Source of the DNA: Herbidospora sakaeratensis
GTDB lineage: Bacteria; Actinomycetota; Actinomycetes; Streptosporangiales; Streptosporangiaceae
NCBI RefSeq assembly: GCF_001570525.1
Contig: NZ_BBXC01000008.1
Coordinates: 310,001-374,000, forward strand
Length of the DNA: 64,000 nt
Reading direction: 5' to 3'
The position numbers were made by a program, and so were the translations under genes. Each line of letters starts with the position of its first letter. The first letter of the stretch is position 1. The notes below the pieces were generated by a model. The model was not told where the DNA came from. It saw nothing but the letters and a program-made list of their open reading frames with translations, and made no database searches. This document shows positions 3,434 through 35,929 of this stretch, one piece after another.

Positions 3434-3470
3434 ACGTCCAACTAGCACCCGCACAATTTACTCTGTTCGC

Positions 3471-4361: not shown

Positions 4362-5073
4362 GGCGATGGCCTCGGTGGAGGCCGACCTCGTCGTCTTCCC
4401 GGAAGCCACGCTGAGCCGCTTCGGCCGCCACATCGGCGAGGTCGCCGAACCCCTCGACGGCCCCTTCGTCAACGGGCTGCGCCAGATCGCCCGGGAGAAC
4501 GGCACCGCCCTGATCGCGGGTGTCTGGGAGCCCGACGGCGGCCGCGTCGCCAACACCACGCTGGCCATCGACACCGGGGGGTCGATCAAGGGGACGTACC
4601 GGAAGATCCACCTGTTCGACTCCTTCGGCTCACGCGAGTCGGAGTTCGTCAGCCCCGGTTCCGAGCCGGTCGTCGCGGAGCTCGACGGGCTGCGCGTGGG
4701 CCTGGCGACCTGCTACGACGTGCGGTTCCCCGAACTGTTCCGCAAGCTGGTCGACCAGGGCGCCGACGTGTTCGCGGTGATCGCCGCCTGGGCCTCGGGG
4801 CCGCTCAAGGAAGACCACTGGACCACCATGGTCCGGGCCCGGGCGATCGAGAACACCACCTGGACCGTCGCGGTCGGCCAGCCCCCGCACAGCGACGGAT
4901 TCGGCGTCGGCCACAGCATGCTCGTCGACCCGATGGGCGTGGTGACCAGGGACCTCGGCCCGGCACCGGCGGTGGAGACGGCCTACATCGATCCCGGCCG
5001 ATCGGACGCGGTCCGGGCCGCGCTGCCGTCGCTGACACACCGGCGATTCACAATCGGGGACATTGCCGGGTGA
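4285..5073 (+). CDS. carbon-nitrogen hydrolase (nitrilase superfamily)
   Basis: A 262-residue cytosolic amidohydrolase with a complete Glu-Lys-Cys triad: FPEATLSRFG (Glu about 40), GTYRKIHLFD (Lys about 107) and ATCYDVRFPELF (Cys about 143). Length and the conserved SRESEFVSPG segment match the family of small amidases that includes omega-amidase and deaminated-glutathione amidase; which substrate is used is not clear. The start is TTG at 4285 (AGG seven bases upstream) or GTG at 4291. It overlaps the 3' end of the DUF418 gene. Confidence 0.9.
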   Translation: MRVTVVALGQIPIDREPKKNLETVREAMASVEADLVVFPEATLSRFGRHIGEVAEPLDGPFVNGLRQIARENGTALIAGVWEPDGGRVANTTLAIDTGGSIKGTYRKIHLFDSFGSRESEFVSPGSEPVVAELDGLRVGLATCYDVRFPELFRKLVDQGADVFAVIAAWASGPLKEDHWTTMVRARAIENTTWTVAVGQPPHSDGFGVGHSMLVDPMGVVTRDLGPAPAVETAYIDPGRSDAVRAALPSLTHRRFTIGDIAG

Positions 5074-11765: not shown

Positions 11766-12211
11766 GGCCGGGCGTCAGCCCGGACTGCGCCAGTAGGCGA
11801 GGTGTCCGCTCGCACTGGACCACGTGTGGCTCCAACTCGTCTTGGGGCCAGATCTGCAGCAGGTTGACCTCGTTGGCGGCGTCATCCATGCCGTGGGCGC
11901 GTGACAGCGCAGCCGATACGCACCCCGATCGGGCTGGCGGCGAGTGGGGCTGCTCCGCAGGACGTTCAGCCGGACCGTGACACCGTCGTGGTCGAAGCGC
12001 TCCAGGAGCCAGGTCAGCACGGCCCTGCCGAGGCCCCTGCCCTGGTGGCCGGGGTCGACGTGGAAGTGTTCCAGCCAGGCGTCCCGGTCGGGCGCAGGGC
12101 GACGCAGCGGACGCGGTGGGCGTCGCGGCGGCCGAGGCGTTCGAGGTCCGGTCTCAGAACGACGGCGCGGAGTTCGGCCACGGTTTCAACGTCCTCGGGA
12201 AGGGTGATCAC
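11752..12211 (-). pseudogene. GNAT acetyltransferase pseudogene
   Basis: Starts with GTG in a GTGA overlap with the hyuB stop. The first frame reads VITLPEDVETVAEL to LGRRDAHRVR and then jumps directly to CVALRP, missing roughly 30 residues expected in such proteins. A +1 shift is then needed to read AWLEHFHVDPGHQGRGLG, the acetyl-CoA binding motif, up to VRLNVLRSSP. A further shift is needed to read RAHGMDDAANEVNLLQIWPQ to the stop near 11752. Two frameshifts and a deletion make this a decayed gene. Its end abuts the low-GC two-gene module. Confidence 0.85.
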
Positions 12212-14028: not shown

Positions 14029-16033
14029 GGCGCACCTCCAGGTTGCCGTAGTCGTCCATGGTCGCGGTGAAGCCGGGGTGGACCGGGAGCGTGGAGCCGT
14101 ACTCCTCGATGACCGCCGGACCGGGCACGACGGCTCCGGCGCCCAGGTCGCGGCGGCGGTAGATCACCGTGCGGGCCCAGCCGTCGAAGTGCACGTCGCG
14201 GGTGCAGATCGGGGTGGGCTCCTCGAACTGCGCGGGGCGGCGGGCCAGCGCCGGGCGGGTGATCGGGCCGACCCCGCTGACGCGCAGGTTGACCCATTCG
14301 ACGGCGTGGCGGGGGTCGTCGCGGTAGCCGTAGCCGTAGAGCCTCTGGTGGGCCTCGTGGAAGCGGGCCTCCACGTCGCCGTCGGCGGGCACCCGCACCT
14401 CGTAGGCCTGGCCGTAGTAGCGCAGGTCGGCGGTGCGGACGTAGACGTGGTCGGTGAAGCCTTCCCGGTCCAAGGCGAGAGCGGCCTGGGCCTCCAGATC
14501 CCGGAAGACCGCCTCGATCTCGTCGGGATCGGGGGCGGTCGTCACGTGAGTGCGGACGTAGTCGTTCTTCACGTCCACCGTGAGCAGGCCGAAGGCCGAC
14601 ACGTTGCCCGGGTCGGGCGGCACGATCGCGCTCTTCAGGCCCAGCACGTCGAGGAGGCGGCAGACCAGCAGCGGGCCGGAGCCGCCGAAGGCGACCATCG
14701 GGAAGTCGCGCACGTCGAGGCCGCGCTTCACGGTGATCTGGCGGATCGCGTTCGACTGGTTGAAGGCGCTGATCTCCAGGATGCCGGTGGCGCAGCGCTC
14801 GGGGGTGAGGCCGAGCTTGGCGGCCAGGCCCTCGATCCCGGCCCGCGCCGCCGCCGCGTCGAGCGGGATCTCGCCGCCCAGCAGGTGGGGCGGGACCCGG
14901 CCGAGGAACACGTGGGCGTCGGTCACGGTGACCTCGGTGCCGCCCTTGCCGTAGCAGATCGGGCCCGGGTCGGCCCCCGCCGAGCGGGGGCCGACCTTCA
15001 GGGTCCCCTCGGGCGAGATCCACGCCACCGAACCGCCGCCCGCCCCGACGGTGACGATGTCGATCATGGGGATCTTGCAGGGGTAACGCCCGATGGAGCC
15101 CTCCGTGGTCTGGGAGGGCTCCCCGTCGACGATGACGGCGACGTCGGTGCTGGTGCCGCCGCCGTCCAGGGTGATCACGCTCGGGTGCCCGGCCGTGCCG
15201 GCGATCAGGGCCGCGCCGAGCGCGCCCGCCGCCGGGCCGGACAGGACGGTGGTGATGGGCTGGTTGACGACCTCGGCCGCCGACAACACCCCGCCGTTGC
15301 TCTTCATCACCGAGAAGCCGCGGCCGAGCCGCTCGGACAGGTTGCCGATGTACGTCCGCATGATCGGCTTCACCGCGGCGTCGACCAGCGTGGTGACCGA
15401 GCGCTCGTATTCGCGGTACTCCCGGAGCACGTCGCTCGACAGGGACACCACGGCCTCGGGGTGCTCGCGGGCCAGCACGTCGCGCATGAGGCGTTCGTGC
15501 GCGGGGTTGGCGTACGCGTGCAGGAAGCACACCCCGATCGCGGTGACGCCCTGGTCGCGGAGCCCGCGCGCGGCCTCGGCGGCGGCCGCCTCGTCGAACG
15601 GCCGGACCTCCGCGCCGGTGTGGTCGAGGCGGCCGGGCACGGTCCGCACCCGGTGCACCGGGACGATCCGGGGCGGCTTCACCCAGAAGTAGGAGTTGCC
15701 GTAGCCGTCCGGGACGCTCTGGCGGGCGATCTCCAGGATGAACTCGAAGCCCTCTGTGGTGACGAAGCCCAGATGGTCCGACCGGTCGGGACGGTCTTCC
15801 AGGAGCTGGTTGGTGGCCACCGTGGTGCCGTGGACCAGCGCCGAGACGCTCGCCAGGTCGACCCCGCCGCCGTGGAGCTCCAACACCTTCGCGACGCCCG
15901 CCAGGAACCCGTCGGCCGGATTCGACGGCGTCGACGGGGTCTTGGTCGTCACGATCTGCCCGGTGCGCTCGTCGACGAGCACCACGTCGGTGAACGTGCC
16001 ACCCGTGTCGACACCGATTCGGACGCTGTACAT
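14015..16033 (-). CDS. hyuA: hydantoinase A / oxoprolinase-family subunit
   Basis: 672 residues with the HyuA N-terminal RIGVDTGGTFTDVVLVDE phosphate-binding start, ALVHGTTVATNQLLE, the FSVMKSNGGVLSAAEV block, TVLSGPAAGALGAALIAG, ITLDGGGTSTDVAVI and GSVAWISPEGTLKVGPRSAGADPGP-type acid/Gly-rich motifs, and the C-terminal GYGYRDDPRHAVEWVNLRV. It supplies the ATP-using part of the ring-opening enzyme made with HyuB. It heads a hyuA-hyuB pair with a 14-base overlap. Strong hairpins lie in the 196 bases between it and the upstream frnE-like gene. Confidence 0.93.
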   Translation of the reverse strand: MYSVRIGVDTGGTFTDVVLVDERTGQIVTTKTPSTPSNPADGFLAGVAKVLELHGGGVDLASVSALVHGTTVATNQLLEDRPDRSDHLGFVTTEGFEFILEIARQSVPDGYGNSYFWVKPPRIVPVHRVRTVPGRLDHTGAEVRPFDEAAAAEAARGLRDQGVTAIGVCFLHAYANPAHERLMRDVLAREHPEAVVSLSSDVLREYREYERSVTTLVDAAVKPIMRTYIGNLSERLGRGFSVMKSNGGVLSAAEVVNQPITTVLSGPAAGALGAALIAGTAGHPSVITLDGGGTSTDVAVIVDGEPSQTTEGSIGRYPCKIPMIDIVTVGAGGGSVAWISPEGTLKVGPRSAGADPGPICYGKGGTEVTVTDAHVFLGRVPPHLLGGEIPLDAAAARAGIEGLAAKLGLTPERCATGILEISAFNQSNAIRQITVKRGLDVRDFPMVAFGGSGPLLVCRLLDVLGLKSAIVPPDPGNVSAFGLLTVDVKNDYVRTHVTTAPDPDEIEAVFRDLEAQAALALDREGFTDHVYVRTADLRYYGQAYEVRVPADGDVEARFHEAHQRLYGYGYRDDPRHAVEWVNLRVSGVGPITRPALARRPAQFEEPTPICTRDVHFDGWARTVIYRRRDLGAGAVVPGPAVIEEYGSTLPVHPGFTATMDDYGNLEVRRELG

Positions 16034-17843: not shown

Positions 17844-18494
17844 CTAGCGTTTCCCGGCACGACCGAGAAGCCAGCCGATGACGGCACTTCCCAGGGCGAT
17901 TCCGGCGCCCATCCCGAAAGCGGCCAGAAGCGGCCACGCGCGCGGCCCCCGGTCACGTCCGCCCCTGGTCGCCGGGGTCTCGGCACGGGTGAAGACGGCC
18001 GCCTCCCCCACCGGCTGCCCCTCGACGAGGACCGGCGCGCCAGGGAAGATCGCGGGCACCGCGAGGATGTCCTTCTCCACGGCGGTGAAGAACTCCCCCG
18101 CCATCTTCTTGGCGACCGAGGTGAGCATGCGCTGCCCGACCCCGCCGACCATCCCGCCGACGACGGCGTCGGCGTCGTAGTCGATCCGGGTGCCGCCGTC
18201 CTCCTCGGTGAGCCGCACCCGCACGGTCGCGTCGACCGTGCCGGGCGCCCCCTGCCCGCGCGCCTTCAGCACGAAGGCCTCGGGCTCCTCGGGGTCGGTG
18301 AGCGCGACCTGCCCCTGGTAGATCCCCTTGATGGACGCCACCCCCGCCGAGACGGTCATGGTGTAGACGTCGCTCCCGACCGCCTCCAGGCGCTGGCAGC
18401 CGGGGATGGTGCGCACCAGCACGGCCGGATCCTGCAGAGCGTCCCAGACCTTCGACCGTTCCGCCCCGATCAGGGCACTGCCGACGACCTTCAC
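17844..18494 (-). CDS. CoxG-like SRPBCC protein with C-terminal membrane anchor
   Basis: 216 residues. The N-terminal 145 residues match the CoxG/carbon-monoxide-dehydrogenase subunit G family: VWDALQDPAVLVRTIPGCQRLE, YQGQVALTDPEEPEAFVLKARGQGAPG, DYDADAVVGGMVGGVGQRML. A Gly/Arg linker leads to one hydrophobic helix WPLLAAFGMGAGIALGSAVIG. CoxG proteins help recruit or mature molybdenum hydroxylases at the membrane. A xanthine-dehydrogenase operon lies only 7 kb away, so it could serve that enzyme (inference). GTG at 18494 has GGGAGG at good spacing; the GTG two codons earlier sits on the ribosome binding site. Confidence 0.85.
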   Translation of the reverse strand: MKVVGSALIGAERSKVWDALQDPAVLVRTIPGCQRLEAVGSDVYTMTVSAGVASIKGIYQGQVALTDPEEPEAFVLKARGQGAPGTVDATVRVRLTEEDGGTRIDYDADAVVGGMVGGVGQRMLTSVAKKMAGEFFTAVEKDILAVPAIFPGAPVLVEGQPVGEAAVFTRAETPATRGGRDRGPRAWPLLAAFGMGAGIALGSAVIGWLLGRAGKR

Positions 18495-18610
18495 GGCCAC
18501 CTCCCTCGGTTGCCGAGCACACTAGAGAATCCAGGCGACCGGCGAGTACGGCAACATCTGCCGCCCGGAGGCCCCGGCGCCGTGCAGATGTTCACAGCGT
18601 AGACCGGACG

Positions 18611-24226: not shown

Positions 24227-25135
24227 ATGACCACGTTCTGGTTCATCGTGATCGCCTTCCTCTGGACCGGCTACTTCGTCCTGGAGGGCTTCGACTTCGG
24301 GGTCGGCGCGCTGATGCCGGTCCTGGCCCGCGGCGAGGCCGAGCGCCGCCAGGTGCTGCGGACCATCGGCCCGGTCTGGGACGGCAACGAGGTGTGGCTG
24401 ATCACCGCGATCGGCGCCATGTTCGCCGCCTTCCCCGCCTGGTACGCCGGCTTCCTCAGCCAGTTCTACCTGGCGGCCGTCATGGTCGTCCTGGCGCTGA
24501 TCGTGCGCGGCGTGGGGCTCGAATGGCGCGGCAAGGTGCGCGCCAGGGAGACCCCGCTGGTGGACGCCGCGATCGTCACCGGCAGCGTGCTGCCCGCCTT
24601 CCTGTGGGGGGCGATCTTCGGCAACGTGCTGTTCGCCTCGGCGTTCGCGACCGTCATGGGCGGCCTGCTGTCGCTGGGCCTGGCGCTGGTGCACGGCGCG
24701 GTGTTCGTCGCGCTGAAGACCAAGGGCCCGGTCAGGGCCCGCGCCCGGGAGCTCGCCTGGGTGGCCGGCGTGGTGCTCGTGCCGGTGGTGGCCTTCGCCC
24801 TGTGGCGGCTGGACGCCTGGCCGGCGTACGTCGCCATGGCGACGTACGCGGCCGGGGTGGCGCTCGTCTGGGGCGGGCGCGAGGGGTGGGCGTTCGCGTG
24901 CACGGCGGTCACGATCGTGGCGACCACCGCCGCGACGTTCCTCGCGCTGCACCCCGAGCCCCTGCCGGGGCTCACGGTCGAGTCGGCCGCCTCGGCCCCC
25001 TACACGCTCACGATCCTCACGTGGATCGGCCTCATCGCGCTCCCCGGGGTCATCGCCTACCAGGCGTGGACCTACTGGGTGTTCCGCAGGAGGCTGACCG
25101 CTCCGGAGGTCCTGCTGGAGTCGCGCAGCGCGTAG
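24227..25135 (+). CDS. cydB: cytochrome bd ubiquinol oxidase subunit II
   Basis: 302 residues with YFVLEGFDFGVGALMPVL, the CydB hallmark GPVWDGNEVWLITAIGAMFAAFP, several transmembrane helices and the C-terminal AYQAWTYWVFRRRL. The ATG at 24227 is preferred because GAGG lies eight bases upstream; the GTG three codons earlier overlaps that site. It is the partner of cydA in the same operon. The last 64 bases overlap the 3' end of the convergent molybdenum-hydroxylase gene. Confidence 0.96.
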   Translation: MTTFWFIVIAFLWTGYFVLEGFDFGVGALMPVLARGEAERRQVLRTIGPVWDGNEVWLITAIGAMFAAFPAWYAGFLSQFYLAAVMVVLALIVRGVGLEWRGKVRARETPLVDAAIVTGSVLPAFLWGAIFGNVLFASAFATVMGGLLSLGLALVHGAVFVALKTKGPVRARARELAWVAGVVLVPVVAFALWRLDAWPAYVAMATYAAGVALVWGGREGWAFACTAVTIVATTAATFLALHPEPLPGLTVESAASAPYTLTILTWIGLIALPGVIAYQAWTYWVFRRRLTAPEVLLESRSA

Positions 25136-27495
25136 AGGTCGGACGGGGAGATCGGCATCTTGTCGATGACGATCCGCTCGGCGTCCTCGACCGCGCCCGC
25201 GATGACCGCGGAGACCGGGATGACCCCGGCCTCGCCGGCCCCCTTGATGCCCAGGGGGTTGAGCGGGGACGGGGTCTCCAAATGGTCGGTCTCGATCGTC
25301 GGGATCTCGGTGACGTAGGGCATCAGGAAGTCCATGAACGAGGCGTTGAGCAGCTGGCCGTACTCGTCGTAGACCATCTTCTCGTAGAGCGCCCCGCCGA
25401 CGCCCTGGGCGACGCCGCCGTGGATCTGCCCCTCGACCAGCATCGGGTTGATCATCTTGCCGCAGTCGTGGACGACGGCGTACCGGAGGATCCTGATCTC
25501 GGCGGTGTCGGGGTCGGTCTCGACGATGGCGGCGTGCATGCCCGACGCGAAGGTCGAGCGCACCGGCGAGTAGTAGTCCTTGCCCTCCAGGCCCGGCTCC
25601 TGGCCCTCGGCCACCGGGGGTTTCTCCATGCTGCCGCCGGTGGCGAACTGGGTGGCCCGCTTGGCCTCCTCGTCGAAGGCGTACCGGAGCGGGTTGGAGA
25701 GCACCGCGACGGTGGCGAGCGGGATCGAGGCGCTGGGGGCGCCCACGACGTGCACCATGCCGTCGGTGATCTCCAGGTCGGCCGGGTCGGCCTCCAGCGC
25801 GTCGGCCGCGATCTGCAGCGCCTTCTCCTTGACCTTCCGGCACGCCAGGGCGATGGCGTTGCCGCTCATCACGGCGGCCCGGGAGGCGAACGTGCCGACG
25901 GCGTAGCCGAACCGCCGGGTGTCGCCGGTGACGACCGACACCTTCTCGATCGGCACGCCGAGCTCGGTCGCGGCGATCTGGGCGAACACCGTCTCGTGGC
26001 CCTGCCCCTGGGAGGTGAGCCCGGTGGAGACGTGCACCCGCCCGTCGGAGGTCACTTGGACGTGGCCGCCCTCGTAGGGCCCGACGCCCGTTCCCTCGAC
26101 GTAGCAGCCGACCCCGATGCCGATCCGCCTGCCTTCCGCGGCGGCCTCGGCCTGCAGCGCGGGGAAGTCGTCCCAGCCGATCAGGTCCTTCAGCTTGCGC
26201 AGCGACTCGGGGTAGTCGCCGCTGTCGTAGATCAGCGGGCGGCCGTCCTGAAAGATCATCTGCTGGTCGTAGGGGAACTCGTCGGGCTGGATGAAGTTCA
26301 CGGCCCGCACGTCGGTCCGGTCCTTGCCGAGGTACTGGGCGATCTTGTCCATCGTGCGCTCCATGCAGAACACGCCCTGCGGGCGCCCGGCCCCCCGGTA
26401 GGGGGTGACCTGCACGGTGTTGGTGTAGACGGAGAAGAACTCGACCCGGTAGGAGCCGATCTTGTACGGCCCCAGCAGCTGCGTCGAGGTGATGATCGGC
26501 ACGATGATGCCGTAGGGCGTGTAGGCGCCGTGGTCGTGCAGGATCTCGACGTCGAGCCCGAGGACGCGGCCCTCGTCGTCGAACCCCACCGTGACGTGCT
26601 GCACCTGGGCCCGCTCGTGGGCCGAGGAGACGAAGTGCTCCCGCCGGTCCTCGGTCCACTTGACCTCGCGGTTCAGCAGCCGGGCCGCCCACGGGACCAG
26701 GATCTCCTCCGGCCACGGGTGCACGATCTTCACCCCGAACCCGCCGCCGACGTCGGGCGCGATGACCTCGACCTTCGGCAGGGGCAGCCCGAGCTTGGCC
26801 GCGATGGCCATGCGCACGCTCGTGGACGTCTGGGTGGAGCTGTAGACGCGCAGGGAACGGTCGTCGGCGTCCCAGCGGGCGTACACCCCCTTGCCCTCCA
26901 TCGGCATGCACGCCGAGCGCTCGATGTCGAGCCGGAACGTCAGCGTGTGGGGCGCGGCGGCGATGACGTCGCGGGTGGCGCGGCCGTCGCGGTGGGCGAC
27001 CTCCTGCACCAGGTGGGCCCCGACGTTGCCCGGCACGTCGTCGTGGACCAGGTTGGGCCCCTCGACGGCGTTCTCCAGCCCGACGACCGGCTTCAGGAAC
27101 TCGTAGGAGACCTGGATCCGCTCGCAGACGTCCTCGGCGACGTACCGGTCGGTCGCGACGACCATGACGATCGGCTCGCCGACGTGCCGCACGACGTCCT
27201 TGGCCAGGCAGTAGGCGGTGCGCCCGTGGGTCAGCGCCGGGTGGGGGATCAGCAGCGGCAGCGGCTCCCGCACGCCCTCGGGCAGGTCCTCCCACGTGTA
27301 GATCGCGACCAGGCCCTCGACGTCGATCGCGTCGTCGACGTCGATGCCGGTGATGCGGGCGTGCGCGTGCGGCGACCGGACGAACGCCACGGCCAGCGCG
27401 CCCGCGCCCAGGTCGTCGAGGTAGCGGCCGTTCCCGGCGACCAGCCGGGCGTCCTCCCTGCGGCGGACCGGCTCGCCGAACAGCTTGGTCGTCAC
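25072..27495 (-). CDS. xanthine dehydrogenase-family molybdenum-binding subunit
   Basis: 807 residues of the molybdopterin-binding large subunit family. Visible are RREDARLVAGNGRYLDD, FVRSPHAHARI, VIAPDVGGGFGVK, the active-site loop PYRGAGRP (near residue 365, the form typical of form II/xanthine-type rather than the CSFR loop of true CO dehydrogenase), YVEGTGVGPYEGG, QGQGHETVFAQI and GIKGAGEAG (near 752) with the catalytic Glu. It hydroxylates a purine or related heterocycle. The start is GTG at 27495 in a GTGA overlap. It is last in permease-FAD-FeS-Mo order. Xanthine as substrate is inferred from the neighbouring permease and PucR. Confidence 0.9.
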   Translation of the reverse strand: MTTKLFGEPVRRREDARLVAGNGRYLDDLGAGALAVAFVRSPHAHARITGIDVDDAIDVEGLVAIYTWEDLPEGVREPLPLLIPHPALTHGRTAYCLAKDVVRHVGEPIVMVVATDRYVAEDVCERIQVSYEFLKPVVGLENAVEGPNLVHDDVPGNVGAHLVQEVAHRDGRATRDVIAAAPHTLTFRLDIERSACMPMEGKGVYARWDADDRSLRVYSSTQTSTSVRMAIAAKLGLPLPKVEVIAPDVGGGFGVKIVHPWPEEILVPWAARLLNREVKWTEDRREHFVSSAHERAQVQHVTVGFDDEGRVLGLDVEILHDHGAYTPYGIIVPIITSTQLLGPYKIGSYRVEFFSVYTNTVQVTPYRGAGRPQGVFCMERTMDKIAQYLGKDRTDVRAVNFIQPDEFPYDQQMIFQDGRPLIYDSGDYPESLRKLKDLIGWDDFPALQAEAAAEGRRIGIGVGCYVEGTGVGPYEGGHVQVTSDGRVHVSTGLTSQGQGHETVFAQIAATELGVPIEKVSVVTGDTRRFGYAVGTFASRAAVMSGNAIALACRKVKEKALQIAADALEADPADLEITDGMVHVVGAPSASIPLATVAVLSNPLRYAFDEEAKRATQFATGGSMEKPPVAEGQEPGLEGKDYYSPVRSTFASGMHAAIVETDPDTAEIRILRYAVVHDCGKMINPMLVEGQIHGGVAQGVGGALYEKMVYDEYGQLLNASFMDFLMPYVTEIPTIETDHLETPSPLNPLGIKGAGEAGVIPVSAVIAGAVEDAERIVIDKMPISPSDLYALRDSSRTSGAVSLLRNTQ

Positions 27496-27968
27496 GGGCC
27501 CTCCTCGGCCATCAGCTCGGCGGCGCGGTGCACCGACTTCACGATGTTCTGGTAGCCCGTGCACCGGCACAGGTTGCCCGCCACCGCCTCGATCGCCTCG
27601 TCGTCGGCGGGCGCGGGGTTCTCCCGCAGGAACGCGGTCACCGTCGTCAGGAACCCGGGCGTGCAGAACCCGCACTGGAGGCCGTGGCACTCGGCGAAGG
27701 CCCGCTGCACCGGCGACAACCGGTCGCCGTCGGCCAGCCCCTCGACCGTGGTGACCTCGTGCCCGGCGACCGACGCCGCGAAGGTCAGGCAGGCCCGCAC
27801 CGGCCGCCCGTCGAGCAGCACCGTGCAGGCCCCGCAGACCCCGTGCTCGCACCCGACGTGGGTGCCGGTCAGCCCGAGGTCGTGGCGGAGGAAGTCGCTC
27901 AGCAGCCGCCGCGCGGGCACCCGCGCGTGCCGCGGCACCCCGTTCACGATCAACGTCACGTCATGCAT
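27492..27968 (-). CDS. xanthine dehydrogenase-family [2Fe-2S] subunit
   Basis: 158 residues with both iron-sulfur sites: the plant-type ferredoxin set Cys40, Cys45, Cys48 and Cys60 in GCEHGVCGACTVLLDG, and the helical domain set Cys99, Cys102, Cys134, Cys136 in LQCGFCTPG and NLCRCTGYQNI. It passes electrons from the molybdenum centre to FAD. It overlaps the FAD subunit gene by eight bases and the large-subunit gene by four, so the three subunits are made in coupled translation. Confidence 0.95.
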   Translation of the reverse strand: MHDVTLIVNGVPRHARVPARRLLSDFLRHDLGLTGTHVGCEHGVCGACTVLLDGRPVRACLTFAASVAGHEVTTVEGLADGDRLSPVQRAFAECHGLQCGFCTPGFLTTVTAFLRENPAPADDEAIEAVAGNLCRCTGYQNIVKSVHRAAELMAEEGP

Positions 27969-28773
27969 CGGCGGCCTCCTTCAGCGCCCGGGCGGCCAGC
28001 ACCCCGGTCAGGTGCCGCCGGTAGTCGGCGGTGGCGTGGATGTCGGCCTCCGGCTCGATCCGCTCCTGTACGAGTTCCGCCGCCCGCGTCCAGTCGCCCT
28101 CGGCCTCGGTGACGTCGACGACCACGGGCACCGCCCCGACGCTCAGGCAGGCGACCCGGGCGTGGCCGGGCGCGACCAGCGCCGCGACCCCCGCCATGGC
28201 GTAGTCGCCGTGCCGCCGCGCCACCTCGACGATCGCGGTCCCGCCCTCGGCGGACGGGAAGAACGCCGACACGGCCAGCTCCCCGGTGCGCAACGACGAC
28301 TCCATCGGCCCGGTGAAGAACTCGGCGGCCGGGATGTCGCGTTCCCCGCCGGCCCCGCGCACCCGCACCGACCCGCCGAGCAGCGCCAGCACGGCCGGCA
28401 TCTCGGCGGCCGGGTCGGCGTGCACGATGCTCCCCACGGTGGTGCCCCGGTTGCGGACCGCCGGGTGGGCCACCAGCCGCAGCGCCCGCCGCACGAGGGG
28501 CTGCGCCGCGAACGCGGTCTCGCTGGCCTCGACCTCGGCGTGCCGGGCCAGCGCGCCGACCCGGACTCCCCCGGCCTCGGCGGTGATCTCGCCGAGCCCG
28601 GCCACGTGGTTGATGTCGACCAGCTGGCCGGGCGCGGCCAGCCGCATGTTCATGAGCGGGATGAGGCTCTGGCCCCCGGCCAGCACCTTCCCGTCGGCTC
28701 CCGCCGCGGTGAGGGCCTCGACGGCCTCGGCCACCGTGGCGGGAGCGTGGTAGACGAACGAAGGAGGCTTCAC
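27961..28773 (-). CDS. xanthine dehydrogenase-family FAD-binding subunit
   Basis: 270 residues, the usual length for the medium subunit. The FAD-binding blocks are VLAGGQSLIPLMNMRLA (about residues 30-46) and RGTTVGSIVHADPAAEMPA (about 108-127). C-terminal CLSVGAVPVVV and LTGVLAARAL follow the family. The GTG start directly follows the TAA stop of the permease gene with no spacer, a tight operon arrangement. Confidence 0.94.
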   Translation of the reverse strand: MKPPSFVYHAPATVAEAVEALTAAGADGKVLAGGQSLIPLMNMRLAAPGQLVDINHVAGLGEITAEAGGVRVGALARHAEVEASETAFAAQPLVRRALRLVAHPAVRNRGTTVGSIVHADPAAEMPAVLALLGGSVRVRGAGGERDIPAAEFFTGPMESSLRTGELAVSAFFPSAEGGTAIVEVARRHGDYAMAGVAALVAPGHARVACLSVGAVPVVVDVTEAEGDWTRAAELVQERIEPEADIHATADYRRHLTGVLAARALKEAADA

Positions 28774-30093
28774 TTAAACCGTTCTACTCCCCGACAGGGC
28801 TCGAAGCAGGTGGTATCCGCCCAGGACGACCACCGTGCCCAGGGCGATGCCGCCGAGGTCGAAGCCCTCGACGATCTGCATGTTGACCGGGCCGATGGCC
28901 AGGATGATGCCCGCGCCGATCGGGACCATGTTGACCGGATCGGCGAAGTCGACCCGGTTCTCGATCCAGATCTTGGCGCCGAGGAGGCCGATCATGCCGT
29001 ACAGGATGACGGTGACGCCACCGAGCACGCCGCCCGGGATCGCGTAGACGAGCGCGCCGAACTTGGGCACCAGGCCCAGCAGGATCGCGATGACGGCGGC
29101 GATGTAGTAGGCCAGCGTGGAGTAGACGCGGGTGGCGGCCATGACGCCGATGTTCTCCGCGTAGGTGGTGGTGGGCGAGCCGCCCACGGCCGAGGTGACC
29201 ACCGTGGCGACGCCGTCGCCGATGATGGCCTTGCCCATGACCGGGTCGACGTCGGCGCCGGTCATCTCGCCGACGGCCTTGACGTGGCCGATGTTCTCGG
29301 CGATGAGAGCGATGACCGCCGGGAGCACCACGATGATGGCCGAGAGCTTGAAGTCGGGCGCGTGGAAGTTCGGCAGGCCGAACCAGGCCGCCTGCTCCAC
29401 GCCGCCGAAGTCGACCCGGAAGTGACTGGTGACCTCGCCGGCGCCCGTGGGGGCGGTGATCTGGCCGAAGACCCGGTCGGCGACCCACGAGAGCACGAAA
29501 CCGGCGACGAGGCCGATCAGGATGCCGAGCCGGCCGACGAAGCCGCGGAACAGGGCGATGATCACGAAGGTGACGAGCATCGTGATGAGGGCGATCCACT
29601 GGTCCTGCGGCCAGTAGATGTCGGCCACGACGTAGGCCAGGCCGAAGCCGATGAGCATGACGACCGCGCCGGTCACGACCGGCGGGAAGATCCGGTTGAT
29701 GACCCCTATGCCGAGGAAGTGGATGACCACGCCGCACAACGCGAGCACGACGCCCGCCACCAGGATCGCGCCCGTGATCGTGGCCGGGCTGCCGCCCTCG
29801 GCGGTGATCGCGGCCGCGCCGCCGACGAACGACGCCGACGTGCCGAGGTAGCTGGGGATCTTCCCGTTCACGATGAGCAGGAAGATGATCGTCGCGACGC
29901 CGCTCATCATCACCGCGACGTTGGGGTCGAGCCCCATCACCACCGGGAAGACGAACGTGGCGCCGAACATCGCGATGACGTGCTGGGCGCCGAACCCGAC
30001 CATGCGCGGCCACGACAACCGCTCGTCGGGCTTGACGACCTCGCCGGGGGCGAGCGTGCCCTTTTCTCCGTGTACCTTCCACCCGAAAGCCAT
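28774..30093 (-). CDS. uracil/xanthine permease (NCS2 family)
   Basis: 439 residues and about 12-14 membrane helices. NCS2 signatures are GFGAQHVIAMFGATFVFP in the first helix, AENIGHVKAVGEMTG, and ENIGVMAATRV, which fits the nucleobase transporter signature [QEP]NxGxxxxT[RKG]. It imports a purine or pyrimidine base with protons. ATG at 30093 follows AAAGGGG. It is the first gene of the xanthine dehydrogenase operon, which argues for a purine substrate. PucR, next door, is the likely regulator. Confidence 0.93.
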   Translation of the reverse strand: MAFGWKVHGEKGTLAPGEVVKPDERLSWPRMVGFGAQHVIAMFGATFVFPVVMGLDPNVAVMMSGVATIIFLLIVNGKIPSYLGTSASFVGGAAAITAEGGSPATITGAILVAGVVLALCGVVIHFLGIGVINRIFPPVVTGAVVMLIGFGLAYVVADIYWPQDQWIALITMLVTFVIIALFRGFVGRLGILIGLVAGFVLSWVADRVFGQITAPTGAGEVTSHFRVDFGGVEQAAWFGLPNFHAPDFKLSAIIVVLPAVIALIAENIGHVKAVGEMTGADVDPVMGKAIIGDGVATVVTSAVGGSPTTTYAENIGVMAATRVYSTLAYYIAAVIAILLGLVPKFGALVYAIPGGVLGGVTVILYGMIGLLGAKIWIENRVDFADPVNMVPIGAGIILAIGPVNMQIVEGFDLGGIALGTVVVLGGYHLLRALSGSRTV

Positions 30094-30189
30094 GTGAGCC
30101 CCTTTGCAACGGGCCGACACCTGGTGGCCACCCCGCAGGCATCCCAGCGCGGCAAAACATTCAGCAGCCCTTCTACCTGGGCTGTTGCG

Positions 30190-30359: not shown

Positions 30360-31970
30360 CTAGATACCCCGCATGTTGAGGACATGGAGCGCCAGCGTCA
30401 GATTGAGGCGCAGGTGGGCGTCTTCGGTGAAGTTGCCGAGCAGGCGCTCGAGTTTCCCGATGCGGTAGCGCAGGGTGTTGTAGTGGAAGTGCAGCCGCCG
30501 GGCGGTCTCGGCCACGTTGAGGTTGGTCTCCAGCAGGACGTGGAGGGTGCGGCGCAGGTCGGCGTTCTCGGCGTCGTCGTCGCCGGCCAGCGCGCCCAGG
30601 GTCTCGCGGACGAAGGCGTGCAGTTCGGCGGTGTCGTTGACGAGCGACAGCAGGCGGTAGACCCCAAGTTGGTCGAAGTGCGCGACCGCGCCGTTGCCGT
30701 GGAGCTGGCGGCCCACCCGGGCGGCCTTGAGCGCCTGGGCGTAGGCGTCGGCGAGCCCCTCGGCGCCGGAGGCGATCCGGCTCATGCCGGTGGAGAAGGT
30801 GCACTCGGCGAAGGCGGCCTGCGCGGCGGTGGCGAGCCGGGCGGTGTCGGCCCCGGCCCCGACGATGACGACGACCTCGTGGGAGAACCCGGCGACCGCG
30901 CCGCGCGGGTCGTGGCGGCGGACGGCGGCCTGCCAGACGGCCAGCAGCCGGTCCTGCGCGGTGCGCTCGTCGCTCTCGGGGTCGAGTTCGGCGACCATGA
31001 CGCTGACGGGGCGCTCCAGGTCCCAGCCGAACGCCTTGGCACGTTCGGCGATGCGCCCGCCGCCCCGGCCGGTGAGCACGTCGCGCAGGAAGTCGGCGCG
31101 GTACTTGCTCTCGACGGCGTTGACCGCCTCCTGCTTGGTGATGACGAGCGCGGCGACGGTCGCGGCCCGCTCCAGGATCCGGATGTCGCTCTCGCGCAGC
31201 GTGCCGGCCTGGCTGAAGGCGACGATGCGGCCGTGGTGGTGGCCCCCGGCCACGATCGGCACGACGGCGTAGTGGCCGTCGGCCCGCACCATCGGCTCGG
31301 GCTGGTCGCGCCCCGGCCCGCTGATCATGTACGCGTCGCGCAACATCGCCACCTGCTCGGAGCCCCCGGCGGCGGCCAGGGTCGCGCCCGAGACGTCCAT
31401 GGCGGCGACGGCGACCTCCAGCAGCCCGGCCACCTCGGCGGTCACCTCGCGCATGCCGCCGCCCGCGAGCACGATCTGGACGAGGCCCCGGTGGGCGTCC
31501 TCGGCGCGGGCGAGGATGGCGGCCTGCCGGTTGAGGATGTCGGTGAGCACCTGGTTGAGGATGTCGTCGAACCCAACGTCGTTCGGCAGGATGATCAGCG
31601 GGAAGCCCAGCCGGTCGGCCTGCTCGATCATCTCGGCGGGCAGTTCGTCGAGGTATCGGCCCAGCTTGATGGCGAGGGCCGACAGGCCGCGTTCGTCAAG
31701 ATCCGCCACAAGGCGGCCCAGCGACTGGGGAGTGTTCCTGAGCGGGTAACCGGTCGTGAGCAGCAGTTCGTTGGGCTTCACCCACGCCAGGATGTCGGGC
31801 ACCTCCATGACGTTGAGGCGCTGGACGATGCGGTCGAGCCCGGTCTTCCCGGCGATGAGCCGCGCCCCGGCGAGGGTGGAGACTCCCAGGACCTCTCCGA
31901 CCGTCACCCCGTGGATGATCGTTCCGGTGCTGGCGAGCCGCATGGCGGGTGCAGCGGGATCCGTCGACAT
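30360..31970 (-). CDS. pucR: PucR-family transcriptional regulator
   Basis: 536 residues. The order of domains is the N-terminal PucR sensor domain (about residues 20-140: VTVGEVLGVSTLAGARLIAG, LLLTTGYPLRN), a GAF-like middle, a CdaR/GGDEF-like region, and the C-terminal helix-turn-helix LLETNLNVAETARRLHFHYNTLRYRI. PucR proteins control purine catabolism in response to late intermediates such as allantoin or ureidoglycolate. It lies between the permease/xanthine dehydrogenase operon and the divergent oxamate carbamoyltransferase-type genes, so it probably governs both sides. Its last 95 bases are duplicated downstream. Confidence 0.93.
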   Translation of the reverse strand: MSTDPAAPAMRLASTGTIIHGVTVGEVLGVSTLAGARLIAGKTGLDRIVQRLNVMEVPDILAWVKPNELLLTTGYPLRNTPQSLGRLVADLDERGLSALAIKLGRYLDELPAEMIEQADRLGFPLIILPNDVGFDDILNQVLTDILNRQAAILARAEDAHRGLVQIVLAGGGMREVTAEVAGLLEVAVAAMDVSGATLAAAGGSEQVAMLRDAYMISGPGRDQPEPMVRADGHYAVVPIVAGGHHHGRIVAFSQAGTLRESDIRILERAATVAALVITKQEAVNAVESKYRADFLRDVLTGRGGGRIAERAKAFGWDLERPVSVMVAELDPESDERTAQDRLLAVWQAAVRRHDPRGAVAGFSHEVVVIVGAGADTARLATAAQAAFAECTFSTGMSRIASGAEGLADAYAQALKAARVGRQLHGNGAVAHFDQLGVYRLLSLVNDTAELHAFVRETLGALAGDDDAENADLRRTLHVLLETNLNVAETARRLHFHYNTLRYRIGKLERLLGNFTEDAHLRLNLTLALHVLNMRGI

Positions 31971-32135: not shown

Positions 32136-33038
32136 GTGGCTGTAGGTACACGCCCTCGAAGCCGCCGCCCGGTGCAGACGGCGCAGCCCGAGGTCACGTA
32201 CCTGTCCGGGGCCGCCGCCACCAGTCTCCGGCCGCTTCTGGAGGCCCCGCGCCGCCCCGCCCGGGTGCTGGCCGCCTTCCCCTTGGCGGTCTACCTGGAG
32301 GTGCGGACCGAGACCGAGCCGCGAGTGCTCGCTCTGGTGACGGGTGAGGCCACCCGGCTGCCCAACGCCGTTGTGCTGACCGGCTCGCTGGAGGGCTTCT
32401 CGGCCGGCGACGACGCCTGGGTCGGCGACGGGGTCGTCGAGGCCGGCGGCCGGGCCGTGCGGGTCCGCCGCTGGTGGGACCCCGCCCCGCCGCTGGGTCC
32501 CGTCTCCGGCACGGCCCTCGCCAGGACCCTCCCCGTCCTCCACGACATCTGCCTCTCCTCCCCCCGGCAGCCCGGCCTGGAGAGCGGCGGCGCGTCCGCG
32601 TTGTTGTCGGCCGGCTGCCACCGGGGCTCGCTCGTCGACGCGATCACCGCGGCCGAGCAGCTCATGGGCCTGGGGCCGGGCCTGACGCCGAGCGGCGACG
32701 ACATGCTGGCCGGGCTCCTGGTCACCCTGCGCTCCGTCGGCACGGCGGCCGGGGTCGGCCGGGCCGTGTGGCTGGCCGACTGGCTGGCCGCCGCGGTGAC
32801 CTTCGACGCCCGCACCCGGACCACCCCGATCTCCGCGACGCTGCTGCACTGCGCGGCGCGCGGCGAGGCGGGCCTGGAGACCCTCGCGGTGCTGCGCGGC
32901 CTCACCGGCCGGCAGCCGCTGGAACCGGCGGCGCACCGCCTGCTCCGGCTGGGGCACACCTCGGGCGCCGACCTGGCGTGGGGCATCAGGACGGGAGTGT
33001 CGGCCGTCCTCGGACTTGGTGAGAGGGACGCTGAGTGA
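32136..33038 (+). CDS. DUF2877 protein, putative oxamate carbamoyltransferase subunit (AllH/YlbF-like)
   Basis: 300 residues starting GTG at 32136 with GAGGGAGGAC in front. DUF2877 blocks are AAFPLAVYLEV, LTGSLEGFSAGDDAWVGDG, the signature GLGPGLTPSGDDMLAGLLVTLR (about residues 180-201) and TTPISATLLHCAARGEA. The protein is the third component, besides FdrA and DUF1116, of the oxamate carbamoyltransferase described in Escherichia coli (allFGH), which converts oxalurate plus phosphate to oxamate and carbamoyl phosphate. It overlaps the next gene by GTGA. It is divergent from pucR. Confidence 0.85.
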   Translation: MAVGTRPRSRRPVQTAQPEVTYLSGAAATSLRPLLEAPRRPARVLAAFPLAVYLEVRTETEPRVLALVTGEATRLPNAVVLTGSLEGFSAGDDAWVGDGVVEAGGRAVRVRRWWDPAPPLGPVSGTALARTLPVLHDICLSSPRQPGLESGGASALLSAGCHRGSLVDAITAAEQLMGLGPGLTPSGDDMLAGLLVTLRSVGTAAGVGRAVWLADWLAAAVTFDARTRTTPISATLLHCAARGEAGLETLAVLRGLTGRQPLEPAAHRLLRLGHTSGADLAWGIRTGVSAVLGLGERDAE

Positions 33039-35929
33039 ACCTGGTGGAGATCCGTCCGGGGGTCTATCACGACTCGGTCAGCCTGATGCGGGTCAGCCAG
33101 GCGCTGACCGGCCGCCCGGGGGTCGAACTGGCGATCGTGGCGATGGCGACGGCCCTGAACGTCGAACTCGCCGCCGACGCGGGCTTCGACGTCCCGGCCG
33201 CGACGGCCGGCGACCTGCTGGTCGCGATCCGGGCGACGACGGACGCCGAGCTCCACGACGCCGCGGCCGACCTGGAACGGCAGTTGTCGGCCCGGGCCGA
33301 GACGCGCGGCCGCGAGGAGGCCCTCCCCCGCACGATCCGGGCCGCCACGCGCCTGGCCGACCCGTCGGCGGTCGTGCTGGTCAGCGTGCCGGGCGAGCAC
33401 GCCTTCACCGAGGCGATGGAGGCGGTCGACGCCGGCCACTCCGTGATGATCTTCAGCGACAACGTGCCGGTGGCGCGCGAAGTGACGCTCAAGGACCTCG
33501 CCCGCGAGCGCGGCGTGCTGGTCATGGGCCCCGACTGCGGCACCGCCGTCGTCGGCGGCGCGGGCCTGGGCTTCGCCAACGTGGTCCGCCCCGGCGCGGT
33601 CGGCGTGGTCGCCGCCTCCGGGACCGGCGCGCAGCAGCTCACCACCCTGCTCGACCTGGCCGGGGTCGGCGTCAGCCACGTGCTCGGCGTCGGCGGCCGC
33701 GACCTGGGCGCCGAGGTCGGCGGCCGGTCCGCCCTCCAGGCCCTGGACGCCCTGATCGCCGACCCCGCGACCGAACTGGTCGTCGTGGTCTCCAAGCCCC
33801 CGGACCCCGGCGTGGCGGCCCGCCTGGGCGAGGCGATCGCCAAGAGCCCCAAGCCCGTCATCACGGCCCTGCTCGGCGAGGGGCAGCCCGACCTCACCGC
33901 GGCGGCCGAATCGGTGCTGCGCGCCGTCGGCGCCGCGATCCCGGTCTGGCCCAGCTGGCCCGGCAACACCGAACCCGGCGGCGGCCCCCTGCGCGGCCTC
34001 TACTCGGGCGGCACCCTCTGCACCGAGGCCCGCCTGATCGCCGGCACGGGCGACTTCACCGACTTCGGCGACGACGAGTACACCGTGGGCCGCGCCCACC
34101 CCATGATCGACCCCGCCCTCCGCCTGGAGGCCCTCGACGCGGTGACCGAGGGCGTCGTGCTCCTGGACGTCGTCCTGGGCCACGGCTCCGACCCCGACCC
34201 GGCCGCCTCCCTGTCGGCCGCCGTCGCCGCCGCGAAGTCGCGCGGCGTGTCCGTCGTGGTCGCCCTGGTCGGCACGGAGGGCGACCCCCAGAACCTCCAG
34301 GCCCAGGCGGCCCGCCTGTTCGAATCGGGCGCCGAGGTCTACACCTCGAACGCCGAAGCGGCGAGGAGAGCGGCGGTCCTGGCGGGCATGCCCGCCTCAG
34401 AACCCCGCCCGGCCACCCGGCCCAAGCCCAACGCAGGCGAAACCAGCGCGGCCGGGACCGGTGCGGCCGGGAGCGGCGCGGCCTTGAACGGCGGCGGAGC
34501 CGAGGCGCCTGGAGAGGCGGCAGCCTCTCAGGGCGGGTGGGCGGGCCATCCTCTGGCCATGCTCTCGGCGGAGCCCTCGGTCATCTCGGTGGGCGCGTCG
34601 ATCCTGGCCGAGGCGCTCGACCAGCAGGCCGTGGTGCACACGTCCGTCGACTGGCGGCCTCCCGTCCAGGGGATGGCCGCCGACCTGGCGGCCGTCATGG
34701 CCGATCCGCGGCGGAAGGCGGCCAACGAGAAGGCCGTGGGCCGGATGCTCAGCGCGCGGCCGCATCTCGTGGGGGTCAGGCGGGCCGGAGACGTCCTGGA
34801 CCTCCCGAAGGGGACCTTCTTCCACGCCGGGCCGCCCATCGAGTGGGAACGGGCCTCCGGGCCCATGCGGGGCGCGCTCATCGGCGGGATGTTGTTCGAG
34901 GGGCTCGCCGCCGACGCCGAGGAGGCCGAGCGGAAGCTCGCGGGGGGCGAGGTCACGCTCGACTCCTGTCACCACCACCGGACCGTCGGGCCCATGGCGG
35001 GCGTCGTGTCCCCGTCCATGTGGATGCTGGAGGTGCACGACGCCGAGAACGGCGGCACCGCCTACTGCTCGCTCAACGAGGGGCTGGGCAAGGTGCTCCG
35101 CTACGGCGCCTACGGGCCCGAGGTGATCGAGCGGCTGCGGTGGATGGGCGAGGTCCTGGGCCCGGCGCTGGCCGAGGTCATGAAGGTCACCGGCCCGCTC
35201 GACCTGCGCAACCTGATCGCGCAGGCCCTCCAGATGGGCGACGAGCTGCACAACCGCAACCGGGCCGCCACCTCTCTCATGGTCAGGGAGCTCGCCCCGG
35301 CCATCGTCGACGCCGTCCCGAACCGGGCCGCCGAGATCCTCCGGTTCGTCAACGGCAACGACCACTTCTTCCTCAACGCCGGCATGGCCGCCGCCAAGGT
35401 CGCCGCCGACGCGGCGCGGAACGTCGAGGGCTCCTCGATGGTCGTGGCGATGGCCCGCAACGGCACCGACTTCGGCATCCAGGTCTCCGGCCTCGGCGAC
35501 CGCTGGTTCACCGGCCCGGCGGGCGTGCCCGACGGCCTCTATCTGGGCGCCTACGGCCCCGATGACGCCAACCCCGACATCGGCGACTCGACCATCACCG
35601 AGACCGTCGGCCTGGGCGGCTTCTCGATGGCCGCCGCGCCGGCGATCGTCCGGTTCGTGGGCGGCGACGTCGCCGACGCGGTCGCCGCCACCACCGCCAT
35701 GTACGAGATCACTCTCGCCGAGCACCCCGTTTACCAGATCCCGGGTCTCGGGTTCCGCGGCACGCCCGCCGGTATCGATGTCACACTGGTCACGCGGACC
35801 TCGGTGCTGCCGGTAGTCAATACGGGTATCGCCGGGCGCGTCGCCGGAACAGGGCAGGTCGGAGCGGGTCTGGTGAGTCCCCCGATGGAGGCTTTCACCG
35901 CCGCGCTGGCCGCTTTGGCCCGGGTTTAA
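33035..35929 (+). CDS. fdrA: FdrA-DUF1116 fusion, putative oxamate carbamoyltransferase
   Basis: 964 residues. Residues about 1-455 are FdrA-like (EIRPGVYHDSVSLMRVSQ, VMGPDCGTAVVGGAGLGFANVVRPG, AASGTGAQQL, YSGGTLCTEARLIAG). About 455-508 is an Ala/Gly/Pro linker of low complexity. About 510-964 is DUF1116/YlbE-like (PSVISVGASILAEALDQQ, CHHHRTVGPMAGVVSPSMW, RNRAATSLMVREL, GNDHFFLNAGMAAAKVAADAA). In Escherichia coli these are separate proteins, AllF and AllG. The fusion fixes their 1:1 ratio. Its partner DUF2877 overlaps it by four bases and the carbamate kinase is at the left window edge. The enzymatic role is by homology only. Confidence 0.86.
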   Translation: MNLVEIRPGVYHDSVSLMRVSQALTGRPGVELAIVAMATALNVELAADAGFDVPAATAGDLLVAIRATTDAELHDAAADLERQLSARAETRGREEALPRTIRAATRLADPSAVVLVSVPGEHAFTEAMEAVDAGHSVMIFSDNVPVAREVTLKDLARERGVLVMGPDCGTAVVGGAGLGFANVVRPGAVGVVAASGTGAQQLTTLLDLAGVGVSHVLGVGGRDLGAEVGGRSALQALDALIADPATELVVVVSKPPDPGVAARLGEAIAKSPKPVITALLGEGQPDLTAAAESVLRAVGAAIPVWPSWPGNTEPGGGPLRGLYSGGTLCTEARLIAGTGDFTDFGDDEYTVGRAHPMIDPALRLEALDAVTEGVVLLDVVLGHGSDPDPAASLSAAVAAAKSRGVSVVVALVGTEGDPQNLQAQAARLFESGAEVYTSNAEAARRAAVLAGMPASEPRPATRPKPNAGETSAAGTGAAGSGAALNGGGAEAPGEAAASQGGWAGHPLAMLSAEPSVISVGASILAEALDQQAVVHTSVDWRPPVQGMAADLAAVMADPRRKAANEKAVGRMLSARPHLVGVRRAGDVLDLPKGTFFHAGPPIEWERASGPMRGALIGGMLFEGLAADAEEAERKLAGGEVTLDSCHHHRTVGPMAGVVSPSMWMLEVHDAENGGTAYCSLNEGLGKVLRYGAYGPEVIERLRWMGEVLGPALAEVMKVTGPLDLRNLIAQALQMGDELHNRNRAATSLMVRELAPAIVDAVPNRAAEILRFVNGNDHFFLNAGMAAAKVAADAARNVEGSSMVVAMARNGTDFGIQVSGLGDRWFTGPAGVPDGLYLGAYGPDDANPDIGDSTITETVGLGGFSMAAAPAIVRFVGGDVADAVAATTAMYEITLAEHPVYQIPGLGFRGTPAGIDVTLVTRTSVLPVVNTGIAGRVAGTGQVGAGLVSPPMEAFTAALAALARV

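Follow-up and report, generated by a model that had tools for sequence, protein, structure and literature searches.

We analyzed a 64,000-nucleotide stretch of a Herbidospora genome (positions 310001-374000 of contig C8 in an 8.6-Mb assembly; hereafter the window) that encodes relatives of the three subunits of the Escherichia coli oxamic transcarbamylase AllFGH. An earlier note on this DNA had described a gene in which AllF (FdrA) and AllG (DUF1116) are fused through an Ala/Gly linker and overlapped by four bases by a gene for AllH (DUF2877), and had called the product a compact oxamate carbamoyltransferase. The architecture is as described. The fusion is a single frame, open throughout (Table 1), and Pfam detects both domain sets in its product: CoA_binding at residues 187-275 and Ligase_CoA at 322-448, followed by AllG (PF06545) at 640-852, whose 325 bits against a cut-off of 27 place the C-terminal half in DUF1116. 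There is also a PF00549 match of 80 bits in these carbamoyltransferase genes, and the upstream gene contains the AllH domain (PF11392; 91.5 bits, cut-off 25), so that all three subunit families are recognizable. The NCBIfam FdrA model NF004760 gives the fusion 371.9 bits, under its cut-off of 433. The allH stop codon (33036-33038) and the GTG start at 33035 share the bases GTGA, and the linker holds 27 Ala/Gly (15 Ala, 12 Gly) plus 7 Pro in 55 residues.

In the predicted fusion monomer (mean predicted local distance difference test score, pLDDT, 83.5; predicted template modeling score 0.81), both halves are confident, while linker residues 460-503 fall below pLDDT 50. The FdrA half matches the fold of PDB 3DMY (E. 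coli FdrA) and the DUF1116 half that of PDB 3CLQ (an Enterococcus DUF1116 protein). The AllH monomer was predicted with a mean pLDDT of 85 and matched no PDB fold at E≤0.001. It carries the motifs GLGPGLTPSGDD and GHTSGAD, whose E. coli counterparts are GKGPGLTPSHDD and GHTSGAD. Among alignment columns at least 90% filled, 55 in AllF and 56 in AllG are identical, and the window proteins, which like those of E. coli are part of that alignment, share them. His246 of mature E. coli SucD, which we take to be the active-site phosphohistidine of succinyl-CoA synthetase, has no histidine near its aligned position in any of the nine AllF rows inspected (of 33 aligned), in a region where the alignment is gappy. 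We rejected CoA ligation as the main function of AllF: it resembles the alpha subunit of succinyl-CoA synthetase, but the E. coli complex works as a carbamoyltransferase (Kim & Kim 2024, PMC11326118).

The left edge of the window cuts through a second relevant gene. A search of the genome for PF09663, the ring-opening amidohydrolase family, found one copy (C8 308952-310025, minus strand), and the full frame containing it (C8 308943-310040) has its ATG on the base directly after the stop codon of the carbamate kinase gene. That neighbor had been called a carbamate kinase before, and NF009007 bears this out. The PF09663 protein scores 584.1 bits to the Rhodococcus barbiturase 5HWE versus 320.3 to the best cyanuric acid hydrolase. 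Barbiturases are distinguished by Asn, His, Lys, Val and Ser or Ala at AtzD positions 195, 321, 325, 345 and 346 (Peat et al., PMC3758960, section 12), and the Herbidospora protein has N-H-K-V-A there. One of these positions is given as glutamine in PMC4051656 and asparagine in PMC3758960, if we are right to equate the two; the solved barbiturase 5HWE has Asn. Judged by these residues, the gene adjoining the carbamate kinase is a barbiturase. Because the NCBIfam cyanuric acid hydrolase model CyanAcHdlAtzD passes its cut-off on this protein, the automatic name would mislead.

PF09663 matches were examined at 73 loci: 65 (51 distinct genomes) have N-H-K-V-(A/S/G), five have the hydrolase-type RTRGG, two a third kind and one is truncated. 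Gly, which is not part of the published Ser/Ala signature, occupies the fifth position in 11 of the 65. Wherever carbamate kinase and barbiturase (>400 bits) occur at one locus they lie on the same strand (51 of 51), with a gap of less than 500 bases in 46 of these loci, or 38 of 43 genomes.

The earlier note also placed the fusion beside pucR and a xanthine dehydrogenase operon. Pfam confirms the PucR-family gene. The large subunit of the molybdenum (Mo) hydroxylase is another matter: among 13 NCBIfam models listed, only NF040766 (CODH_aero_grp5) passes its cut-off (1499.5 versus 950), whereas the xanthine dehydrogenase models XdhA (387 versus 780), xanthine_xdhB (254 versus 849.5) and pucD (279 versus 784) all fall far short. 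We therefore rejected xanthine dehydrogenase. By its family model the enzyme is like group 5 of the carbon monoxide (CO) dehydrogenases. When we clustered the predicted genes of 140 stretches plus the window, several of the stretches sharing one genome, the Mo large-subunit and PucR clusters each occurred at 115 loci (some antisense frames being included in the PucR cluster), the NCS2 permease cluster at 103 and an AtzD/barbiturase-like cluster at 12.

Given this gene content, we propose that AllFG-AllH probably belongs to oxidative pyrimidine catabolism, where it would cleave ureidomalonate phosphorolytically. Ureidomalonate (H2N-CO-NH-CO-CH2-COO-) is oxalurate with one additional CH2 between carbonyl and carboxylate. 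In the proposed pathway, uracil would be imported by the NCS2 permease and oxidized to barbiturate by the Mo-hydroxylase (25072-28773), after which barbiturase would open the barbiturate ring to give ureidomalonate. Phosphate-dependent cleavage of ureidomalonate by AllFG-AllH would then yield carbamoyl phosphate together with malonamate, carbamate kinase would use carbamoyl phosphate and ADP to make ATP, CO2 and NH3, and an amidase and a CoA-transferase may dispose of malonamate and malonate. The proposal builds on gene content, the barbiturase signature, co-occurrence and clade structure, from which we infer the substrates of the Mo-hydroxylase and AllFGH and the fate of malonamate. We favor phosphorolysis over hydrolysis on the model of the E. 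coli enzyme (PMC11326118).

Table 1. Genes of the putative pathway and their neighbors in the Herbidospora window (window positions).
Feature	Position	Strand	Remarks
barbiturase, 5' end	1..40	-	365-aa gene; remainder left of the window, C8 308943-310040
carbamate kinase	41..961	-	NF009007 277.6 versus cut-off 266; TIGR00746 (arcC equivalog) 328.5 versus 358.25, below
carbon-nitrogen hydrolase	4285..5073	+	candidate malonamate amidase; closest to the deaminated glutathione amidase model, below cut-off
acyl-CoA carboxyltransferase-like	6085..7584	-	candidate for malonyl-CoA handling
CoA-transferase family III	7581..8729	-	start uncertain; nearest model succinate--glutarate CoA-transferase, below cut-off; candidate for malonate activation
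HyuB (hydantoinase/oxoprolinase B)	12208..14028	-	
HyuA (hydantoinase/oxoprolinase A)	14015..16033	-	possible alternative ureide-cleaving enzyme; present in other such loci
CoxG-like protein	17844..18500	-	present in other such loci
Mo-hydroxylase large subunit	25072..27495	-	NF040766 CODH_aero_grp5 family; candidate uracil dehydrogenase
Mo-hydroxylase [2Fe-2S] subunit	27492..27968	-	Pfam
Mo-hydroxylase FAD subunit	27961..28773	-	Pfam
NCS2 nucleobase permease	28774..30120	-	top NCBIfam match RutG (pyrimidine), below cut-off
PucR-family regulator	30360..31970	-	divergent from allH; Pfam
allH (DUF2877)	32136..33038	+	300 aa; upstream of fusion
allF-allG fusion	33035..35929	+	964 aa, GTG start
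parts of the fusion protein			residues ~1-452 FdrA/SCS-alpha-like half; ~452-506 Ala/Gly/Pro linker; ~506-964 DUF1116/AllG half

We examined co-occurrence in evenly drawn samples of 150 genomes from the family and 396 from the phylum. In the family sample, PF09663 is present in 94 genomes, AllG at any score in 96 and AllG above 290 bits in 90. PF09663 and AllG above 290 bits are both present in 89 genomes and both absent from 55. Admitting all AllG matches leaves the number with both at 89 and gives seven genomes with AllG only; none of the six with a low-scoring AllG alone has PF09663. An orthologue of the Mo large subunit (>1400 bits) occurs in 92 of the 150 genomes, every one of which has PF09663, and one of the two remaining PF09663 genomes (G445) has a partial match near a contig start. 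The five PF09663 genomes without AllG are G440, G463, G488, G489 and G494; G489 is a case of contig break, with AllF lying at the end (L262), and G494 retains PucR and AllH (L269). AllG and PF09663 share a contig in 60 of the 89 genomes, at a median distance of 36 kb. Across the phylum, AllG occurs in 49 genomes, PF09663 in 27 and both in 22, the last spanning seven family codes. We read the signature residues in 36 of the 94 PF09663 genomes of the family sample. In the phylum sample they were read in 18 of 27 (14 of 22 with AllG, 4 of 5 without), leaving out G075, G086, G097, G108, G299, G326, G353, G370 and G192. All four read among the five PF09663-only phylum genomes were non-barbiturase.

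In genome G535 (L280) the AllG match covers positions 1-197 of the 215 in the profile. PF09663 and the Mo orthologue are missing while AllH, NCS2 and PucR persist, as though the entire pathway were decaying.

In other families the genes are gathered into compact runs. At four loci (L102, L105, L106 and L114) an amidase, CoxG, the Mo-hydroxylase subunits (MoLMS), AllG-AllF-AllH, carbamate kinase, NCS2 and barbiturase lie on one strand, with unlabelled genes interspersed and HyuA at three of the four; L114 has a divergent second NCS2 match as well. A fifth locus, L109, has the same run minus the amidase and CoxG within its stretch. Embleya (Streptomycetaceae) holds HyuA, HyuB, CoA-transferase, carboxyltransferase, carbamate kinase (ArcC), barbiturase, carbon-nitrogen hydrolase, CoxG, MoLMS, NCS2, PucR, AllH, AllF and AllG within ~35 kb, the names being assigned mostly by eye from N-termini because this part of the record is unannotated. 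In Herbidospora the same set extends over 36 kb, within the window and next to it.

AllG phylogeny follows these associations. We built a quick tree of 68 AllG proteins with SH-like approximate likelihood ratio test (SH-aLRT) support and no bootstrap, dropping L279 for coverage. A row was labelled as barbiturase-linked if its genome has PF09663 or is Embleya, with L121 assumed from its genus; 12 of the 68 rows are labelled unknown, and three rows labelled as lacking barbiturase (L281, L282 and L285) represent additional copies of AllG from G496 and G479, genomes with PF09663 elsewhere. All 28 barbiturase-labelled rows (27 by search) fall into one 38-row clade that includes the window (SH-aLRT 96); the other ten are nine unlabelled rows and the decayed L280. 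E. coli AllG and two rows linked to ureidoglycolate dehydrogenase (AllD) form a separate clade (SH-aLRT 100), to which the window AllG does not belong in this tree, and two rows linked to cyanuric acid hydrolase occupy a third region. Twenty-five columns separate 24 window-clade rows (at least 93% one residue; seven of these loci are without a checked barbiturase) from three AllD-linked rows. The differing sites include Q733, N740, N775, H777 and Q816, where the AllD-linked rows have T, Q, T, Q and R, and several adjoin family-invariant residues: N740 sits between H739 and R741, and H777 beside F778. Because three AllD rows are few, we treat these sites only as leads.

These data bear directly on the substrate named in the earlier note, oxalurate derived from the purine product allantoin. 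Oxalurate formation from allantoin requires AllD. The AllD model TIGR03175 found no match in the Herbidospora genome at E≤1e-3, a search that does match in B. subtilis and C. glutamicum. Its purine genes lie on another contig, C27, in a run of OHCU decarboxylase, HIU hydrolase, uricase, two Mo-hydroxylase subunits, an amidohydrolase, glycerate kinase, allantoinase and allantoicase; ending in allantoicase, this run needs no AllFGH. Thus, a compact oxamate carbamoyltransferase cleaving oxalurate is very unlikely here: the three E. coli subunit families are present and PucR and carbamate kinase lie in the region, but the genome is without an AllD homologue and its AllG lies outside the AllD-linked clade, in a type that co-occurs with PF09663. 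What stands of the earlier assignment is the fusion, its pairing with DUF2877, the kinship to AllFGH and the tie to carbamate kinase, which also makes carbamoyl phosphate and ATP likely products; the substrate and pathway are not supported. Above its cut-off, AllD occurs in two of the 396 phylum genomes (G380 and G388), neither with PF09663, and sub-cut-off matches to its family occur in 61. In both G380 and G388 a true AllFG fusion adjoins AllD and carbamate kinase (L117 and L118). Such a pairing within the same phylum lends the oxalurate reading some plausibility, and it is probably there, instead of in the window, that the compact oxamate carbamoyltransferase of the earlier note exists.

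If ureidomalonate is the substrate, its cleavage could still take another form. The oxidative pathway as described ends with ureidomalonase, which hydrolyzes ureidomalonate to malonic acid and urea (PMC3758960), and AllFG-AllH might be that missing ureidomalonase, with carbamate kinase serving something else. The same genomic evidence speaks for ureidomalonate in either case. However, carbamate kinase lies close to barbiturase at most loci that have both, and the E. coli enzyme acts as a carbamoyl transferase/phosphorolase (PMC11326118), which together make hydrolysis by AllFG-AllH highly improbable. Another proposal is that HyuA/HyuB, found in the same clusters, cleaves ureidomalonate while AllFGH acts on another ureide of the same catabolic network. 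One locus, L260 of G488, fits this, having barbiturase, CoA-transferase, HyuAB and Mo-hydroxylase in a genome where AllG was not found. We nevertheless consider it very unlikely, as AllG and PF09663 are nearly one-to-one in the family sample, and one enterobacterial plasmid region has a PF09663 ring-opener with AllFGH and arcC, HyuAB being unlisted in a gene table that may be incomplete. Besides L260, HyuA/HyuB recurs in the barbiturase clusters L266 and L290; the nearest models to the window pair are caprolactamase subunits, below cut-off.

Several observations weigh against phosphorolysis of ureidomalonate by AllFG-AllH. To our knowledge, no uracil dehydrogenase gene has been identified with which the Mo-hydroxylase could be compared; a search of the open-licence PMC literature gave no lead to one. 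HyuA/HyuB could cleave ureidomalonate instead and is the main competitor for that step. AllFGH was not found in the stretches read from G440 and G488 (L258-L260) despite PF09663, and G442 has an AllG of 299.6 bits without PF09663, though outside the barbiturase-linked clade (L287). AllG and PF09663 lie on different contigs in 29 of the 89 genomes, and in Herbidospora itself 36 kb separate the fusion from the barbiturase-carbamate kinase pair, which is encoded on the opposite strand. An AllB-like amidohydrolase (33% identity) sits inside the L114 run, and sub-cut-off AllD-family matches occur in five of the 22 phylum genomes with both AllG and PF09663. The co-occurrence counts are not phylogenetically corrected, and the CyanAcHdlAtzD score of 462.7, above its cut-off of 360, speaks against the barbiturase identity. 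The only assayed member of the family, E. coli AllFGH, uses oxamate and oxalurate, although its Km for oxamate is 36.9 mM (PMC11326118). Finally, the described end of the pathway is hydrolysis (PMC3758960), and a phosphorolytic version would therefore be a variant.

Comparison with known systems places the locus among several related ones. With E. coli AllFGH it shares the three protein families, the partner carbamate kinase and common AllH motifs (PMC11326118). It differs in the fusion of AllF to AllG and the order H-FG, in its link to barbiturase, Mo-hydroxylase and NCS2 permease rather than AllC/D/E, and in an AllG from a separate clade, with differences beside invariant residues. With the oxidative pyrimidine pathway (PMC3758960, PMC4051656) it shares a barbiturase of the solved kind, accompanied in the window by a Mo-hydroxylase and a nucleobase permease; the putative phosphorolytic AllFG-H and carbamate kinase would stand in place of the hydrolytic ureidomalonase. 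The nitrifier allFGHK genes, beside genes for biuret and triuret (PMC12625717), likewise combine AllFGH and carbamate kinase outside allantoin operons, known upstream purine genes being absent, but their authors assign oxalurate, and the excerpt mentions neither barbiturase nor Mo-hydroxylase. The ureidoglycine carbamoyltransferase of Rubrobacter xylanophilus, whose gene adjoins a carbamate kinase gene, is another case of catabolic ureide phosphorolysis, but comes from the ATCase-like group (PMC4016543); AllFGH has no similarity to known transcarbamylases, according to Kim & Kim (PMC11326118). Terms for barbiturase or ureidomalonate together with AllFGH were not found among the matches listed in a search of the open-licence PMC literature.

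A related module occurs on plasmids. Citrobacter freundii pRHBSTW-00342_2 and Aminobacter sp. SR38 pSR8 both bring together a PF09663 ring-opening amidohydrolase, FdrA, DUF1116, DUF2877 and carbamate kinase. Unlike in the window, the ring-opener is of the cyanuric-acid-hydrolase type (RTRGG), AllF and AllG are separate genes, and Mo-hydroxylase is not listed in the stretches viewed. On pRHBSTW-00342_2 (L289, 8704-18783), the cyanuric-acid-hydrolase-type gene, an NCS2 transporter, DUF2877, FdrA, DUF1116, carbamate kinase and a LysR-type gene make up a unit flanked by two IS26 copies. On pSR8 (L288, 4579-18391), the cyanuric acid hydrolase gene, whose product is the PDB 5T13 sequence over 370 residues, lies between DUF1116 and carbamate kinase, with a BMP/ABC transporter and DUF2877 adjoining. 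In a plasmid collection, 132 records match the Herbidospora PF09663 protein and 193 match AllG; many listed Enterobacteriaceae plasmids have the two matches a few kb apart by their coordinates, one such region having been viewed with annotation.

The plasmid modules and the nitrifier allFGHK genes (PMC12625717) point to an AllFGH family that acts on several acyl-ureas. We are evenly divided on a broader reading, in which AllFGH enzymes would be general acyl-urea phosphorolases (H2N-CO-NH-CO-X-COO- + Pi -> carbamoyl phosphate + H2N-CO-X-COO-). X would be absent in oxalurate (AllD-linked), CH2 in ureidomalonate (barbiturase-linked, including the window) and NH in 1-carboxybiuret (cyanuric-acid-hydrolase-linked, on the plasmids). 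The barbiturase branch would then hold the full gene set for oxidative uracil degradation, with the CODH-group-5 Mo-hydroxylase as uracil/thymine dehydrogenase. If the ureidomalonate pathway is correct, it would supply genes for two steps of oxidative pyrimidine catabolism: the formation of barbiturate, catalyzed by a Mo-hydroxylase to which family models give the name CO dehydrogenase, and the cleavage of ureidomalonate. The carbamoyltransferase, whose genes were reported in 2024 (PMC11326118), would thereby acquire a second physiological substrate, and the occurrence of DUF1116, FdrA and DUF2877 genes in genomes without AllD would be explained. The enzyme's role would be to harvest nitrogen and ATP from a product of uracil, via barbiturate, not from a purine product. 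In any case, caution is due in naming every AllFGH locus "oxamate carbamoyltransferase".

The pathway is the more important finding; the fusion, whose distribution the earlier note had left to be checked, is not unique to the window. We surveyed the best 80 matching loci in a species collection and then a further 60 fetched stretches, of which 55 contain AllG. AllF and AllG share one frame in 14 of the best 80 loci: six Herbidospora species (L121-L125 and L132), five Acrocarpospora species, and one metagenome-assembled genome (MAG) each of Propionibacteriales, Treponema and Gracilinema. The closest named loci are those of Herbidospora, whose fusion proteins are 88-92% identical to that of the window in their best-matching segment, and all seven Herbidospora genomes seen carry the fusion. 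The second set contributed ten fusions, six from the same species as named first-set loci, and including those of G452, G446 and the AllD-linked G380 and G388 (the latter two confirmed by Pfam). We rejected the long AllG frames of L119 and L120 as fusions, since Pfam detects AllG alone in them. At most of the remaining Streptosporangiaceae loci the genes are separate frames, arranged H-F-G. The fused state requires at least four changes on the AllG tree, and the fusion has arisen several times outside Herbidospora.

A sequencing or assembly artefact is excluded, as the six named Herbidospora species keep one frame. Between two common anchor motifs, their linkers vary from 42 to 101 residues, and one is a repeated AAEPT tract. 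This recurrence, with a linker length that varies even within a genus, indicates a genuine and repeated fusion whose functional effect is probably mild; it seems dispensable because close relatives encode AllF and AllG separately. Its disordered linker would keep the two subunits equal in number, and the fused protein offers a fixed 1:1 version for structural work.

The two Spirochaete fusions, in the Treponema (L182) and Gracilinema (L190) MAGs, have carbamate kinase and Mo-hydroxylase subunits nearby. In the window, a penicillin-acyltransferase-like protein (PF03417) and an aminotransferase (1038-2168 and 2294-3454) are encoded beside the carbamate kinase, and that aminotransferase recurs near the barbiturase-ArcC pair in other genera.

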